NCBI RefSeq assembly: GCF_004522105.1
Contig: NZ_SPUJ01000005.1
Coordinates: 558,001 to 622,000 of the forward strand
Reading direction: 5' to 3'
Length of the DNA stretch: 64,000 nucleotides
From: Nocardioides sp. 1609
GTDB taxonomy: Bacteria; Actinomycetota; Actinomycetes; Propionibacteriales; Nocardioidaceae
A program made the position numbers and the translations under genes. Of this stretch, positions 2,900 to 14,966 are shown piece by piece; positions within the stretch are counted from its first letter, which is position 1, and every line of letters starts with the position of its first letter. The notes under the pieces are model-generated. The model was given only the letters and a program-made list of their open reading frames with translations, did no database searches and was not told where the DNA came from.

Positions 2900-4939
2900 T
2901 CAGCGGCGGACCGTGAACCGCCAGACCCGCACCGTCCGGTTGCCGGCCAGGTCGACGGCGACGAGCCGCACGACGTGACGCCCCGGGGCGAGGGCGCGTC
3001 GCGGCGTGTAGGTCACCGCGCCTCCGGCGAGCCGCGCCGGCGCCCTCAGGCCGTCGACGCGCAGGACGACGTCGAGGTCGGCGGCGGGGGAGAGCCGGTC
3101 GCCGACCCGGGCCCGGATCGTCGGGGTGCGGTCGCGCGTCGCGCCGGTCGGCTTCGCGGCGCGCACGGTCGGGCCGGTGCGGTCGACCACCCACTGGCGG
3201 ACCGCCGGGCTGGCGTCGGTGCTGCCGGCGCTGTCGGTGGCGCGCACCCGCAAGGTGCGGCGGCCCTCCTTCAACCCGGTGTAGGAGGTCGTGGCTCCGC
3301 AGAGCTTCCACGCCCCCGCGTCGAGGCGGCACTCGAAGGTGCTGCCGGGCTCGTTGCTCCCGAACCGGAAGAGGAGCTCCTTCGCCCGGACGTGACCCTG
3401 CGGACCGCTCACGATGGTCGTCTGCGGGGCGGCACCGGCACGGACGACGACCCCGACGGACGCGGTGGCGCTGACGGTCGCGGAGGCCCGCGCGGTGACG
3501 GTGGCGGTGTAGGTGCCGGCAGCGCGGTAGGTGTGGGTCGGTCGTGGTCCCGACCCCGTCGACCCGTCGCCGAAGTCCCACGTCAGGGCGGGGGCGAGGT
3601 CGACGCAGGCGATGCGGAGCGTCGGGTTGTCGGGGTCGTGGATCACGATGGAGACGGCCTTCGTGCCGGCTCGCCGCGTCGACGTCACCGCGACGGTGCC
3701 GCTGGGCCCGCTGGCGCCGCTGGCGTTGCTGGTGAAGGGGAGCCAGATCTCGTTGGTCTCCGCGAAGGGGAGCGTGGTGTCGAAGCGGTAGTGGGCGCCG
3801 GCGTTGGCGCTGGCGCAGGTCTGCTCGTGCACGTGGACGTTGTGCGGTGCGCCGGGCTCGAGCCCGGTGAGGGCGATCGTCGTGGTGGTCTGGGTGCTGG
3901 TGCGGACCATCTCGGCGGAGCCGGTGATGTCGGGGTAGGTGGCGAGGCCGTCGGCGAAGGAGCGGATCTGACCGGTCGTGGTGAGTCCGGCGTCGGTCGC
4001 GTCGGGGTCGAGGGCGACGGCGGCTCCGAAGGTCACGGCGACGGGCGCGGTCCCTGCGGCGGGGGTGGCCGAGGCCACGACCTCCAGCACGGGTCCGTCG
4101 CCGCCACCACCGTCCCCGGTCACGGCGATCTGGAGGCTCTCCTCGGCGCTGGCGCCCTGCGCGTCGGTGACCGTGACCGTCGCGGTGTAGGTGCCGGCGG
4201 CGGTGTAGGTGTGCTGCGGCTCCGGCAGCGTGGACTGGTCGGCAGCGCCGGCGTCCGTGCCGAAGTCCCAGAGGTAGGTGAGGACGTCGCCGTCGGCGTC
4301 GTGGCCGTGCGCCATGAAGGAGACCAGCAGCGGCGCTGCTCCGGACGTCGGCGAGGCCATCGGGTCGGCGGTCGGCGGCTGGTTGGTGTCGCCCGGACCG
4401 GCGTCCTGGACGATGATCTGGCCCGACATCAGCGGCTGGTGGTTGTTGCAGATGTAGTTGTAGGTGCCCGGGGCGGTGAAGGTGTAGCTGACCGCGGGGT
4501 CCCCGACGCCCCCTCCGCCGGTCAGCGGCGGCATCCAGGTCGCGAGCGTGTTCTGGTTGAGGAGGTCGTGGTACTGGTTCACGCTCTCGAAGTGCCACTC
4601 GACGGTGTCGCCGACGGTGATCGTCAGCGGGTGGTGGGCGTTGTTGAGTCCGGTCTCGCGGATGACCCAGCCCTGCATCGGCGTACCGCCGTCCGGCATC
4701 GGGGCGTCCTCGCGTGCGTCGATGATCCAGGTCCGCGGTGCGATCGACGGAGGGGTCGTGGCGCTGGACGTCTGCGGGAGCGCTGCGGGCGCGTGCGCCG
4801 GGGTCGCAGCCGCCTGCGACATCACGGCGCTGGACAGGCCGGCAGCGACCACCAGCGCGACGAGGATCCGCACGCGCAGGGCGGACCAGCGGGACAGACG
4901 GCGGGCACGCCGCTTGAGTCGAGTCGTGGGACGGGCCAT
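2900..4939 (-). CDS. Secreted cupredoxin - PKD - SOD-like - Ig protein
   Basis: 679 residues from ATG 4939; an ATG at 4972 is possible. It has a twin-arginine-free signal segment around residues 25-50. A cupredoxin domain (about 71-178) has a type 1 copper ligand set H124, C164, H167, M171. A first PKD domain spans about 187-273. A second PKD domain begins at about 285 and resumes at about 451 (WDFGDGSTGSG). Between its halves sits a Cu/Zn-SOD-like stretch with HVH (369-371), C375, H383, H434 and the pair R442/C445. Two Ig-like domains finish the protein. The likely role is extracellular copper or redox chemistry. The domain calls are by motif, not by search. Confidence 0.75.
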   Translation of the reverse strand: MARPTTRLKRRARRLSRWSALRVRILVALVVAAGLSSAVMSQAAATPAHAPAALPQTSSATTPPSIAPRTWIIDAREDAPMPDGGTPMQGWVIRETGLNNAHHPLTITVGDTVEWHFESVNQYHDLLNQNTLATWMPPLTGGGGVGDPAVSYTFTAPGTYNYICNNHQPLMSGQIIVQDAGPGDTNQPPTADPMASPTSGAAPLLVSFMAHGHDADGDVLTYLWDFGTDAGAADQSTLPEPQHTYTAAGTYTATVTVTDAQGASAEESLQIAVTGDGGGGDGPVLEVVASATPAAGTAPVAVTFGAAVALDPDATDAGLTTTGQIRSFADGLATYPDITGSAEMVRTSTQTTTTIALTGLEPGAPHNVHVHEQTCASANAGAHYRFDTTLPFAETNEIWLPFTSNASGASGPSGTVAVTSTRRAGTKAVSIVIHDPDNPTLRIACVDLAPALTWDFGDGSTGSGPRPTHTYRAAGTYTATVTARASATVSATASVGVVVRAGAAPQTTIVSGPQGHVRAKELLFRFGSNEPGSTFECRLDAGAWKLCGATTSYTGLKEGRRTLRVRATDSAGSTDASPAVRQWVVDRTGPTVRAAKPTGATRDRTPTIRARVGDRLSPAADLDVVLRVDGLRAPARLAGGAVTYTPRRALAPGRHVVRLVAVDLAGNRTVRVWRFTVRR

Positions 4940-10550: not shown

Positions 10551-10613
10551 AGAGGGGGTGTTCCCTGTGCGAGACGCGGGCCCGCGCCACCACCCCCGTG
10601 GTTGAGTCGAGAC

Positions 10614-11300
10614 GTGACAGCCCCTCTGGACGGCGCCCCGGTCGGACGCCGCGTCGTGCTCGGCCTCCTCGGCCTCGGCGCGGTCGGCGTCGTCACCGGC
10701 AGCAGGGTCCAGGAGGGTCTGAGCCGGGCCCTGGCCCCGATCCAGCTGCGCGACCCGACCGGGCTCACCTCGGCGATCCCGGTCGGCGACACCTGGCGCT
10801 ACTACTCGGTCACGGGCCCGGTCGAGCCGCGCGACGCCTCGACGTACGCCCTCGACGTGTCCGGGCTGGTCGACCGCCCGGCGACCTACTCGCTGGCCGA
10901 CCTCGAGGGGCTGCCGCAGACGGCGTTCTCCGACACGTTCCACTGCGTCACCGGCTGGAAGGTCGAGGACGTGCCGTGGAGCGGCGTCCGGGTGGCCGAC
11001 CTGCTGGAGAGCGCGGCGCCGACCGGGGACGCCCTCGGGGTGCGGTTCCGCTCCTTCGACGGGACCTACACGGTCAACATGACGCTCGAGCAGGCCCGCG
11101 CCGACGACGTCCTCGTGGTGCTGACGATGTACGGCGAGCCGGTGACGCACGACCACGGGGGACCGGTGCGGATCTACTCGGGCTCCATGTACGGCTACAA
11201 GAGCAACAAGTGGCTCTCCGAGATCGAGGTGACCTCGGACAACGAGCCGGGCTACTGGGAGGACCGCGGCTACCCGCTCGACGGGTACATCGGTGAGTGA
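10614..11300 (+). CDS. Molybdopterin-dependent oxidoreductase (sulfite oxidase/MsrP-like), exported
   Basis: 228 residues from GTG 10614. The N-terminal VGRRVVLGLLGLGAVGVV has an Arg pair and hydrophobic core like a Tat signal, as expected for a cofactor-loaded protein. The core matches the sulfite-oxidase fold: FHCVTGWKVEDVPWSGVR contains the Cys that would bind molybdenum, and YGYKSNKWLSEIE closes the domain. Family members reduce or oxidise sulfoxides or sulfite outside the membrane. It overlaps the cytochrome b gene by 8 bases, so the two probably form one membrane-bound complex. Confidence 0.82.
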   Translation: MTAPLDGAPVGRRVVLGLLGLGAVGVVTGSRVQEGLSRALAPIQLRDPTGLTSAIPVGDTWRYYSVTGPVEPRDASTYALDVSGLVDRPATYSLADLEGLPQTAFSDTFHCVTGWKVEDVPWSGVRVADLLESAAPTGDALGVRFRSFDGTYTVNMTLEQARADDVLVVLTMYGEPVTHDHGGPVRIYSGSMYGYKSNKWLSEIEVTSDNEPGYWEDRGYPLDGYIGE

Positions 11301-11904
11301 GGCGCGCGACCTGCACCGCTTCGCCCGCGCGGAGCGGTGGGTGCACCGGTCCGTGGCGCTCCTCATGGGGGTCTGCATCGTGACCGCGGCGATCCTCTAC
11401 AACGGCTCCCTCATGCTGGCCGTGGGCCACCGCGACGCCGTCGAGACGATCCACCTCTGGTGCGGCCTCGCGCTCCCGGTCCCGATGCTGCTCGGCGCCG
11501 CGTCGGCGGCGTACCGGGCCGACCTGCGGCGGCTCAACCGGTTCAGCCGCGACGACCGGCGGTGGCTGCGGAGCCGCACCCGGCGCGACGGCATCATCCC
11601 GGTCGGCAAGTTCAACGCCGGCCAGAAGCTCAACGCGTGGTTGGTGGCCGGCTCGACCGGCGTCCTGCTGGGCACCGGGATCCTCCTGGAGTGGACCGGC
11701 CTGGTCCGGCTGTCCTGGCGCGCGGGCGCGACGTTCGTGCACGACTGGTTCGCGCTCGGCCTCGGGCTGCTCGTGGTCGGCCACGTGGTGTACGCCTACC
11801 GCGACCCGGAGGCGCGCCGCGGCATGCGCACCGGCCGGGTCCGGCGCACGTGGGCCGAGGTCGAGCACGGCGCCTGGGTCGAGGAGGCCGACGAGGCCCG
11901 GTAG
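11293..11904 (+). CDS. Cytochrome b561/FdnI-type membrane subunit
   Basis: 203 residues. Four membrane segments with His residues placed as in di-heme cytochrome b subunits: ERWVHRSVALLM, ETIHLWCGLALP, FVHDWFALG and VVGHVVYAYRD. The GTG start overlaps the stop of the molybdopterin oxidoreductase. Such pairs pass electrons between the quinone pool and the external molybdoenzyme (MsrPQ-like logic, though this protein is not clearly MsrQ). The basic cytoplasmic loop (RRWLRSRTRRDG) sets topology. It converges on the reverse transcriptase gene. Confidence 0.78.
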   Translation: MSEARDLHRFARAERWVHRSVALLMGVCIVTAAILYNGSLMLAVGHRDAVETIHLWCGLALPVPMLLGAASAAYRADLRRLNRFSRDDRRWLRSRTRRDGIIPVGKFNAGQKLNAWLVAGSTGVLLGTGILLEWTGLVRLSWRAGATFVHDWFALGLGLLVVGHVVYAYRDPEARRGMRTGRVRRTWAEVEHGAWVEEADEAR

Positions 11905-11917
11905 CCCGGCGGGTGGC

Positions 11918-13228
11918 TCAGCGCGACCAGTCGATCGCGTCGTAGTCGGCCAGCAGGCGCGCCCCGCGGCCGGGGTCGTGCTGGGCGATCCAGGCGATCC
12001 GGCCGCGCAGGTGCTCGGCGAAGGCCGGCCGCTCCTCGCGGTTCTGGGTGCTGGGTCCGTGCCGTCGGCAGTTGTGCACGACGGCCCGCAGCGTGTCGAC
12101 CTCGGCGCGCGACACCCGGGGCTGCTCGTTGACCACGAGCCCGCCGAGGGTCTGCCGACCGCCGCGCGGCATCACGCCGGTCTTCCGGGGGTTCAGGTGG
12201 AAGCCCTCGTCACGCACCACCGTCTCGATCGCGTCGAGCAGCCGCGAGGTGCCGGTGCCCCACCCGCGGTCGCCCGAGAAGGCGAGGTCGTCGGCGTAGC
12301 GGGTGTAGCGGCCACCCCACGACCGGGCGAGGGCGGCCAGCCGGACGTCGAGCCGGTACGCCGCGAGGTTGGCGAGGGCGGGCGAGGTGGGCGCACCCTG
12401 CGGCAGGTGGGGTGCGGCGAGCCGGCGACCGAGGCGCCAGTGGGCGTCGAGGAGCCGCGGGGACGCCGGCGCGGGGATCGAGCGCCAGGCGGCGTGGGGC
12501 AGCACGGTGGTCGTCAGTCCCGCCAGGGCGTGGGCGACGGGCTCGGGGTAGCCGGCCGTCCGCCAGATCCCGTACACCCGCGCGACGGTGACGCTGGCGA
12601 AGAACGACTCCAGGTCGAGCCGGAGCACCACCGGTCGGCCGGCGTGCGGGGCGGCGTACGAGCGCACCGAGCCGCCGCGCCGGAAGCCACGGGCCGCGTC
12701 GTGCGGCGGGACGCGGGACACGACGTCGTCGAGCAGGAGTCGTTGGAGGACCTTCGTCCGCCGCTTGGGTGCCTCGAGCACGCGGACGGCGCCGCTCGGC
12801 GCGACCCGGTGGCTGACCCGGTAGTGCTGGAGCCGGGGCTCGCTCGTGCGACGGGCCAGGCGCCGCGTGTCGGCGAACCAGTCGAGCTCGCCCGGCGTGA
12901 GGTCGAGGTGGCGCGCCAGGTCGTCGAGACCGTCGTAGGTCGGGAGCCGCCACGGGTTCGCGAGCATCCGGGTGTCGGACAGGGGCTGGGAGACCGGCCG
13001 GTCGGCCGCCGCCCGCTGGGCCGCCGGCAGCCTGGCGAGCACCGCGGCCAGCTCGCGCGGCCGGTCGTGCGGCGGGCGCGGGTAGAGCTCGAGGGTCTGG
13101 CGCGCGAGCGCGGTCAGCCACCGGCGGCGGCGGGCCAGGACCGCCCCGCCGCTCTCGACCAGCCCCGCCGGCGTCCACTCCCCGGCGAGGAAGCCGGCGG
13201 CCAGGGCGCGGGCCAGGTCCGGTCTCAC
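11918..13228 (-). CDS. Retron-type reverse transcriptase
   Basis: 436 residues from GTG 13228. The N-terminal extension is about 130 residues. RT motifs follow: LEAPKRRTKVLQRLLL (151-166), GFRRGGSV, LDLESFFAS (204-212, first catalytic Asp), LPQGAPTSPALANL (275-288), YTRYADDLAFSG (catalytic YADD 311-314) and LNPRKTG. The retron hallmarks are present but altered: YAAPH (191-195) where retrons have NAxxH, and LGGLVVN (361-367) where VTG is usual. The order and the QGAPTSP and YADD boxes fit retron RTs better than group II intron or phage DGR enzymes. No effector gene adjoins. A structured RNA candidate lies 32 bases upstream. Confidence 0.82.
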   Translation of the reverse strand: MRPDLARALAAGFLAGEWTPAGLVESGGAVLARRRRWLTALARQTLELYPRPPHDRPRELAAVLARLPAAQRAAADRPVSQPLSDTRMLANPWRLPTYDGLDDLARHLDLTPGELDWFADTRRLARRTSEPRLQHYRVSHRVAPSGAVRVLEAPKRRTKVLQRLLLDDVVSRVPPHDAARGFRRGGSVRSYAAPHAGRPVVLRLDLESFFASVTVARVYGIWRTAGYPEPVAHALAGLTTTVLPHAAWRSIPAPASPRLLDAHWRLGRRLAAPHLPQGAPTSPALANLAAYRLDVRLAALARSWGGRYTRYADDLAFSGDRGWGTGTSRLLDAIETVVRDEGFHLNPRKTGVMPRGGRQTLGGLVVNEQPRVSRAEVDTLRAVVHNCRRHGPSTQNREERPAFAEHLRGRIAWIAQHDPGRGARLLADYDAIDWSR

Positions 13229-13260
13229 CGGGCTCCTCGTCGTCCGGGGCGGCGAGGGGT

Positions 13261-13431
13261 GTGCGGCAGCGCTGCTCGACCTGTCCTGTCGTGCGCGCGC
13301 TCACCTGCAGCGGAGCGCAGCGACGCGCGCGCGGTGCAGTGCCCGGACGTACCGGTGGCCCCCGGGGTAGCCCCGGGGAGGTGGACTGGCGACTCGCGCC
13401 AGGTCACCGTCTCGAGAGGGCGCTGCCGCAC
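13261..13431 (-). ncRNA. Candidate retron msr-msd RNA
   Basis: On the minus strand, 13431-13420 and 13272-13261 are exact 12-base reverse complements (GTGCGGCAGCGC and its complement), like retron a1 and a2. In transcript order the interior holds a hairpin at 13408-13380 with a perfect inner stem CTGGCG/CGCCAG, a perfect 8-bp hairpin at 13378-13360, and a long imperfect hairpin at 13332-13293 (8-bp GCGCGCGC stem with an inner CTGC/GCAG). Two short stems then a longer one matches the msr-then-msd plan. It ends 32 bases before the reverse transcriptase start. This is structural inference without folding software. Confidence 0.6.
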
Positions 13432-13437
13432 CGCTGG

Positions 13438-13443
13438 ACCCTA
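13438..13443 (-). promoter_or_regulatory. -10 box for the candidate retron RNA
   Basis: Minus-strand TAGGGT fits TANNNT, and with 6 spacer bases the predicted transcript would start at 13431, exactly the first base of the a1 repeat. I see no convincing -35 box. Confidence 0.45.
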
Positions 13444-13514
13444 GCAACCGCAGCGCCGCCCGGCCGGGAGGACGTCGCGGGAACACCGACCGGCCCACCT
13501 CGGTTGGGCACCCT

Positions 13515-14966
13515 GTGCCAGCTCCCGAGATCACCCGCGCCAGCGTCGGACTCCGCAGCGAGCGCGGGCCGGTCCTCCTGGCGGTGATGCTCGGCACCGG
13601 CCTGGTGGCGATCGACGCGACGATCCTGGCCACGGCGGTGCCGGCGGTCGTCGACGACCTCGGCGGGTTCACCTCGTTCCCGTGGCTGTTCTCGATCTAC
13701 CTGCTGGCGCAGGCGGTCTCGGTGCCGATCTACGGCAAGGTGGCGGACCTCTACGGGCGCAAGCCGGTGATGCTGCTCGGGATCGGGCTCTTCGTCCTCG
13801 GGTCGCTGCTGTGCGGCATCGCCTGGAGCATGCCGGCGCTCATCGTCTTCCGGCTCGTGCAGGGCCTCGGGGCCGGCGCCGTGCAGCCGATGGGGATGAC
13901 CATCGTCGGCGACATCTACTCCCTGGCCGAGCGCGCCAAGGTGCAGGGCTACCTGGCCAGCGTCTGGGCGATCGCCTCGGTCGTCGGGCCGACGCTCGGC
14001 GGTGTCTTCGCCGACTACCTGTCCTGGCGCTGGATCTTCTTCGTGAACCTCCCGCTGGGCATCGCGGCCGGCTGGATGCTGTGGCGCCGCTTCGAGGAGG
14101 AGGTCGAGCGCCGACGGCACTCCATCGACTACCTGGGGGCGGGCCTGCTGGCGGCCGGCGGGTCGTTGCTCCTGCTCGGTCTGCTCGAGGGCGGGGTGCG
14201 GTGGGACTGGGGCTCGCTCCCCGGCGTCGGGATCTTCCTCGCCGCCGCCGCGCTGCTCGCGGCCTTCGTGGTGGTCGAGTCGCGAGCCCCCGAGCCGGTG
14301 CTGCCGCTGTGGATCTTCCAGCGGCGGGTGCTGAACGCGTCGAACTCGGGCGCGTTCGTCGTCGGCGTCCTGATGCTCGGCCTGACGTCGTACGTGCCGC
14401 TCTACGCCCAGGGCGTGCTCGGCCACGGCGCCCTGGTCGCCGGGCTCGCCCTGGCGGCGATGACCATCGGCTGGCCGATCGCGGCCACGACGAGCGGCCG
14501 CTTCTACCTCACCATCGGTTTCCGCCGGACGGTGCTGATGGGGGCGCTGATCGTGGTCGTCGGGGCGGCCCTGCTGCTGCCGGTGGACGCCGACAGCGCC
14601 CTGTGGCAGCTGGCGCTGCCGTGCTTCGTGATGGGCATCGGCTTCGGGTACGTCGCCAGCCCCGGCGTGGTCGTGGCCCAGTCGTCGGTCGGCTGGCAGC
14701 ACCGCGGCGTCGCGACCGGCACCAACATGTTCGCCCGGTCGATGGGCAGCGCGGTCGGAGTCGCGGTGTTCGGGGCGATCGTCAACGCCCGGGTCGCCGG
14801 GTCGGCCCCCGCGGGCGGGACGCTCGACCTCGAGAACCTCTCCGCCGGCGTCCTGGCCCCGGCGATCCACGCGGTCTTCGTCTGCTCCGCGGTCGTCGCC
14901 CTCGCCCTGCTGCTGTCGGGGCTGCTGATGCCGCGTCGGGCCGGCACCGAGTCCGCCGACGCCTGA
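13515..14966 (+). CDS. MFS drug exporter, DHA2 (14-helix) family
   Basis: 483 residues from GTG 13515. Motif A is GKVADLYGRKPVML between helices 2 and 3. Motif D1/B-like IDATILATAVPAVVDDL is in helix 1 and the antiporter motif C region is VVGPTLGGVFADYLSWRWIFFVNLP in helix 5 (shortened forms of the EmrB/QacA pattern). About 14 membrane segments. It would use the proton gradient to export toxic or bioactive compounds; the substrate is unknown. It is divergent from the candidate retron and convergent with the SDR gene. Confidence 0.87.
   Translation: MPAPEITRASVGLRSERGPVLLAVMLGTGLVAIDATILATAVPAVVDDLGGFTSFPWLFSIYLLAQAVSVPIYGKVADLYGRKPVMLLGIGLFVLGSLLCGIAWSMPALIVFRLVQGLGAGAVQPMGMTIVGDIYSLAERAKVQGYLASVWAIASVVGPTLGGVFADYLSWRWIFFVNLPLGIAAGWMLWRRFEEEVERRRHSIDYLGAGLLAAGGSLLLLGLLEGGVRWDWGSLPGVGIFLAAAALLAAFVVVESRAPEPVLPLWIFQRRVLNASNSGAFVVGVLMLGLTSYVPLYAQGVLGHGALVAGLALAAMTIGWPIAATTSGRFYLTIGFRRTVLMGALIVVVGAALLLPVDADSALWQLALPCFVMGIGFGYVASPGVVVAQSSVGWQHRGVATGTNMFARSMGSAVGVAVFGAIVNARVAGSAPAGGTLDLENLSAGVLAPAIHAVFVCSAVVALALLLSGLLMPRRAGTESADA

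Follow-up and report, generated by a model that had tools for sequence, protein, structure and literature searches.

A putative copper-only superoxide dismutase-like domain nested within a PKD domain of a predicted secreted cupredoxin protein

Results

The 64,000-nucleotide stretch of DNA analysed here (the window) carries a gene, P0001, whose product contains a domain homologous to Cu/Zn superoxide dismutases (SODs), inserted into the second of two PKD domains and sharing its chain with a cupredoxin. On balance, and for the explanation taken as a whole, P0001 is probably a secreted, extracellular copper redox protein, in which the nested domain would form an open-site, copper-only SOD-like module that perhaps supports carbohydrate oxidation as a redox accessory. 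The observation is real and non-trivial; what is least certain about it is the structure and the biochemistry.

Domain layout of P0001

The gene and its parts are as follows:

2900..4939, minus strand: P0001 gene, encoding a 679-residue multi-domain copper protein, secreted by prediction, with a start backed by the syntenic orthologue
4805..4939, minus strand: signal-peptide-like N-terminus, basic then hydrophobic, by inspection (residues 1-45; 89% identical in the syntenic orthologue)
4400..4744, minus strand: cupredoxin with type 1 ligands H124, C164, H167 and M171 (residues 66-180; PF00127)
4121..4384, minus strand: first PKD domain, intact (residues 186-273; PF00801 / PF18911)
4004..4093, minus strand: N-terminal half of the second PKD domain, strands A and B (residues 283-312; by deletion test, and kept in nested relatives)
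3593..3982, minus strand: nested, putative copper-only SOD-like domain (residues 320-449; H369, H371, C375, H383, H434, R442, C445)
3443..3589, minus strand: C-terminal half of the second PKD domain, from WDFGDG (residues 451-499; by PKD profile score)
2903..3427, minus strand: C-terminal Ig-like domains (residues 505-679; PF19077 Big_13, 45.5 bits)

Residue numbering is exact for translation from an ATG at position 4939, a start that the syntenic orthologue supports by beginning alike (MTRPTTRLKRRARRLSRW, compared with MARPTTRLKRRARRLSRW in P0001). An earlier reading of the sequence alone (hereafter, the sequence-only reading) had named a type 1 copper site and a set of SOD-type residues, and translation places all of them where it said. 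The cupredoxin scores 25.2 bits against PF00127 (cut-off 21.2), has the full His-Cys-His-Met set, and resembles amicyanin and plastocyanin in a search of the PDB. PKD matches fall in two stretches of the chain, both over the Pfam cut-offs, and residues 321-450 taken alone matched no Pfam or NCBIfam model.

The second PKD domain is split by an insert of about 130 residues. Its N-terminal half alone has no match to the PKD profile and its C-terminal half alone scores 47.2 bits (profile positions 32-70), but when the two halves are fused without the insert, the score rises to 61.3 bits and the match covers positions 2-70 of 80, i.e., a full-length PKD domain (PF00801), which upholds the proposal that residues 285-312 and 451-499 belong to one interrupted domain. 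The insertion point in the nested relatives is the loop between PKD strands B and C. The motif of the C-terminal half follows the SOD-like domain in all 43 nested relatives examined, and the N-terminal half is clear by eye in most of these and degenerate in a few.

Homology of the insert to Cu/Zn superoxide dismutases

The insert of P0001 alone does not match the Sod_Cu model (PF00080), and its relationship to SODs emerges from the family. When 11 family sequences were aligned, the series H, H, C, G, H, N, E, H, R, C was invariant, and seven of the 11 matched Sod_Cu individually. A profile built from these sequences retrieved Cu/Zn SODs from the PDB (best match 1srd, E = 2.1e-6), with HxH, GxH, VxH and R-x-A-C in register. 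Profile-profile comparison (hhalign) against ten SodCs gave a probability of 92.4 (E = 5e-7) for nested domains only and of 98 (E = 2e-13) for their non-nested relatives, the two classes matching one another at E = 1e-40. Together these matches sustain the claim of a SOD-like domain made from the single sequence.

In the hhalign controls, the best of 40 column shuffles scored 16.9, compared with 45.1 for the real alignment. Masking the His and Cys columns left the comparison of non-nested relatives with SodC at 39.1, so more than the motif underlies this homology; masking the ligand columns of the nested class by itself lowered its score to 22.8 (probability 7%), such that the direct link between nested domains and SodC depends in good part on the motif and on the non-nested relatives. 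Every one of the 44 distinct nested domains in the host genus keeps the Arg, the two Cys and all four copper His, which makes this residue set more than chance, and the distance from H383 to E397 is constant at 14. C375 and C445, present in every nested copy, are the candidate disulfide cysteines, and R442, three residues before the last Cys in all 44, occupies the position of the active-site Arg. A chance motif is ruled out by this conservation together with the shuffle, reversal and masking controls. Single-sequence AlphaFold models of residues 283-500 and 318-450 showed only strands, at a confidence too low to define a fold (pLDDT 37.7 and 41.2, respectively); homology suggests that the insert adopts a SOD-like barrel.

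Copper-only features of the nested domain

Cu/Zn SODs bind zinc through two further His and an Asp that follow the bridging His, and they possess an electrostatic loop of about 18-27 residues. No His occurs between H383 and H434 in P0001, so the two zinc His ligands are absent, and in all 44 nested domains the Arg lies eight positions after the last copper His (H434 to R442), versus 17-43 in ten SodCs. Bacterial SODs have a loop of about 20 residues (PMC8382915). Judged by its residues, the domain thus appears to have kept the copper site, lost the zinc site and shortened loop VII, the combination that defines copper-only SODs, in agreement with the sequence-only reading, which had described a copper site with no zinc ligands. 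Glutamates occur at positions 394 (40 of 44 nested domains) and 397 (44 of 44) with the same +3 spacing as E110 and D113 of SOD5, with Glu in place of Asp, although the register with SOD5 is uncertain. Fungal copper-only SODs have lost both zinc and loop VII, and their copper is thereby exposed (PMC13017621); by analogy, any copper in the nested domain should be open to solvent.

Distribution and origin of the nested form

Some relative of the SOD-like domain is present in at least 61 of 215 genomes of the host genus, and the nested form in about 35 by our own count of strong matches; only the top candidates in each genome were scored, and both counts are lower bounds. A protein search revealed a second copy in the genome of P0001 itself and further copies in other genomes. 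Outside the host genus, there were no strong nested-type matches among the top candidates from 396 genomes of the phylum and 391 of the order, and the domain is found there either as a standalone, seemingly secreted protein (about 170-300 residues) or within other large proteins. A contig search with the whole protein was dominated by PKD matches and returned no SOD-like domain in loci L001-L080, and no relatives were found on viral contigs.

The sequence-only reading had suggested surveying homologues for the same insertion, and the host genus supplied 44 distinct nested copies. In a maximum-likelihood tree, these domains form one clade (support 100/99) adjoining small standalone proteins, from which we conclude that the insertion arose in a single event. 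The analysis thus goes beyond the earlier description in finding the module to be genus-wide, of single origin and, for some paralogues, tied to carbohydrate-oxidising proteins.

In one nested copy (L206, G187:C1, about 789452-789835), the frame shifts after the SOD domain, reflecting a frameshift or a sequencing error. Large proteins with more distant SOD-like domains were also encountered (L162-L169, L205 and L190 on G000:C4, the last being ThuA-GSDH-like). In such distant giant relatives, the Arg is often replaced by Pro (GLPIAC / GLPRGC) and the copper His remain; because the Arg is often lost, some members may not be dismutases.

Architecture and genomic neighbours

An upstream cupredoxin with its ligands is present in 42 of 43 nested chains, the exception being a broken frame. 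Most chains fall into one of two size classes, about 550-770 residues (as in P0001) and about 2500-2850 residues, and two chains (L188:5635-9579 and L132) each harbour two SOD-like domains, nested in tandem, an arrangement that recalls the repeats of animal CSRPs. The genome of P0001 encodes a 2771-residue paralogue in which GSDH (a propeller family), 3-keto-disaccharide hydrolase, concanavalin-like and PKD domains precede the copper module (cupredoxin plus SOD), and whose gene adjoins those for a ThuA-GSDH giant and a Gfo/Idh/MocA oxidoreductase. Two other settings involve short copies: in two genomes, one lies directly after a giant with galactose-oxidase/Kelch domains (and ThuA in one), and in four others it sits beside a gene for an IclR-type regulator, with ABC transporter genes in the locus. 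In about eleven genomes the short copy occupies a conserved locus that also has genes for a methylase and a mannosyltransferase and one resembling resuscitation factors, but no sugar-oxidising enzymes.

P0001 is itself flanked by genes for a cytochrome P450, a 5'-3' exonuclease and an ABC transporter; no sugar-oxidising enzyme is adjacent to the window copy, and no conserved operon partner was found for it. The association with sugar oxidation is real for some paralogues but not for the window copy.

Several relatives have N-terminal stretches rich in Met, His and Asp. On a Streptomyces plasmid (L113:7674-8902), a standalone SOD-like protein annotated as 'superoxide dismutase family protein', whose domain is preceded by a Met-rich stretch, is encoded directly beside CopC.

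Proposed function and alternatives

Under the explanation that we favour, the second PKD domain would host, in its B-C loop, a Cu/Zn-SOD-type barrel that no longer has a zinc site and keeps only a remnant of the electrostatic loop. The putative copper site (H369, H371, H383, H434), retained along with C375, C445 and R442, would dismute superoxide outside the cell, and the cupredoxin would act as an electron-transfer site that takes or relays electrons from sugar oxidation, the superoxide formed in that process being cleared by the SOD-like domain. The accessory role in extracellular carbohydrate oxidation, which we advance with less confidence than the rest, is suggested by the paralogues that are fused to or adjoin secreted sugar dehydrogenases and galactose-oxidase-like proteins.

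The nested domain might instead bind copper for acquisition, buffering or delivery (e.g., to the cupredoxin or to a partner cuproenzyme) and have no dismutase activity. The standalone relative adjoining CopC, the Met/His/Asp-rich stretches, the presence of a cupredoxin in the same chain, and a short loop that would expose the copper, which copper-only SODs bind more weakly (PMC13017621), all accord with such a role; a mere carrier, however, would have no need of the superoxide-steering Arg that never varies among the 44 nested domains, and we think such a role unlikely. That same invariance, extending to all copper ligands and both Cys in copies that otherwise diverge widely, makes it very doubtful that the domain is a structural Ig-like barrel for adhesion or spacing with its SOD residues as a relic, even though the chain consists mostly of PKD and Ig-like modules, the Arg is often gone from the distant giants, and large proteins whose SOD-like domains are devoid of catalytic residues do exist (PMC12362111). 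We give least credence to a CHRD-like domain (PF07452) without SOD copper geometry, which the sequence-only reading had named among the findings that would overturn it: weak CHRD matches occur in two of 11 relatives (best E = 0.0035), and the non-nested relatives align to CHRD with a probability of 68 over 41 columns, but the nested domains do so with a probability of 9.5, again over 41 columns, versus 92 for SodC, and the alignment is confined to HxH and the first strands, leaving out the C..H..H..R..C part. CHRD identity was rejected on these grounds.

Electrons could also pass directly between the type 1 and the SOD-like copper, in which case the nested site would work in one direction, as a superoxide oxidase or reductase and not as a dismutase. 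The two sites are retained jointly in 42 of 43 chains, and a SOD-type copper behind an eight-residue loop is expected to be exposed (PMC13017621), but at least one whole PKD domain separates the two sites and SOD-like relatives without a cupredoxin exist, such that we regard this as very unlikely. In its most far-reaching form, a type 1 site coupled to an open, PKD-nested SOD-type site would handle superoxide one way while exchanging electrons with a sugar oxidase outside the cell, which would constitute a new bacterial extracellular redox module, and this, too, is quite unlikely.

Relation to known copper-only SODs

An extracellular copper-only SOD-like module, as we propose for P0001, has known parallels in eukaryotes and in bacteria. 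A 2026 review presents open-site copper-only SODs as peculiar to fungi, oomycetes and animals, and states that those of ~25 kDa are confined to the first two groups (PMC13017621). The P0001 domain resembles these enzymes (e.g., SOD5 of C. albicans) and the CSRP repeats in keeping the copper residues, Cys and Arg, in losing zinc, in having a shortened loop VII and in its predicted extracellular location, and the CSRP repeats likewise sit in large multi-domain chains (PMC13017621). It differs from SOD5 and CSRP in being bacterial, nested in a PKD domain and joined to a cupredoxin, and in having Glu/Glu for E110/D113, the register there being uncertain. An actinobacterial family that keeps all the copper-site residues, lacks the zinc site and has loop VII reduced to a minimum would give bacteria their own version of the open-site copper-only SODs. 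The link of some paralogues to secreted sugar dehydrogenases and galactose-oxidase-like proteins raises the question of whether extracellular carbohydrate oxidation in bacteria is paired with a built-in module for superoxide and electron transfer.

Among bacterial proteins, DR_0644 of the Deinococcus radiodurans S-layer complex (PDB 8ACA) is likewise a copper-only SOD-like protein of the cell envelope, and was reached weakly by our family profile in the PDB search (E = 0.11), but its copper is assigned to three His, as opposed to the four candidate His of P0001, forms a trimeric collar, and has neither PKD nor cupredoxin (PMC9823218). DrSOD (PDB 9m58), a Cu/Zn-SOD fused to a six-bladed beta-propeller lactonase, is multi-domain like the P0001 family, whose giant paralogues also contain a propeller-family domain (GSDH), but retains zinc and the loop and is a plain fusion without nesting; other large SOD-like/propeller proteins are without catalytic residues, unlike the nested copies described here, which retain them (PMC12362111). 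SodC of Mycobacterium is zinc-free, actinobacterial and copper-only, but has a full-length loop VII and a closed site (PMC13017621). Proteins from Streptomyces and other Actinomycetota annotated as 'superoxide dismutase family protein' (e.g., WP_331733420.1, 40% identity over 79% of the query) share the same ligands but are standalone (about 170-300 residues), not nested, and without a cupredoxin. In the literature searched, we found nothing that combines a PKD-nested SOD with a cupredoxin.

The P0001 locus

The genome of P0001 encodes a nickel SOD, and a genome search detected neither an Fe/Mn SOD nor a Sod_Cu match. Its locus is syntenic with one in genome G086 (L180:5279-7531 being the orthologue), where the proteins of three flanking genes share 96-98% identity (dS about 0.2). 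Identity within P0001 is mosaic: The signal peptide and the last Ig domain are 89% and 88% identical to those of the orthologue, versus 45% for the cupredoxin, 51% for the first PKD domain and 60% for the SOD-like domain, with dS of 0.4-0.7 in these central parts. This pattern fits a mid-gene replacement by recombination, and diversifying selection may be an alternative cause. In two further genomes (G111 and G215), the same exonuclease gene likewise lies near a short copy, at a distance of about 7 kb.

Elsewhere in the window, a gene at 11918-13228 on the minus strand encodes a reverse transcriptase closest to PADLOC RT_other (E = 1e-170) and to the retron RT outgroup (E = 1e-159), and the surrounding region (11000-14500) has no match in Rfam. 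At 10602-11904 on the plus strand, a molybdopterin oxidoreductase gene is followed by a cytochrome b561-type gene, forming an MsrP-like pair.
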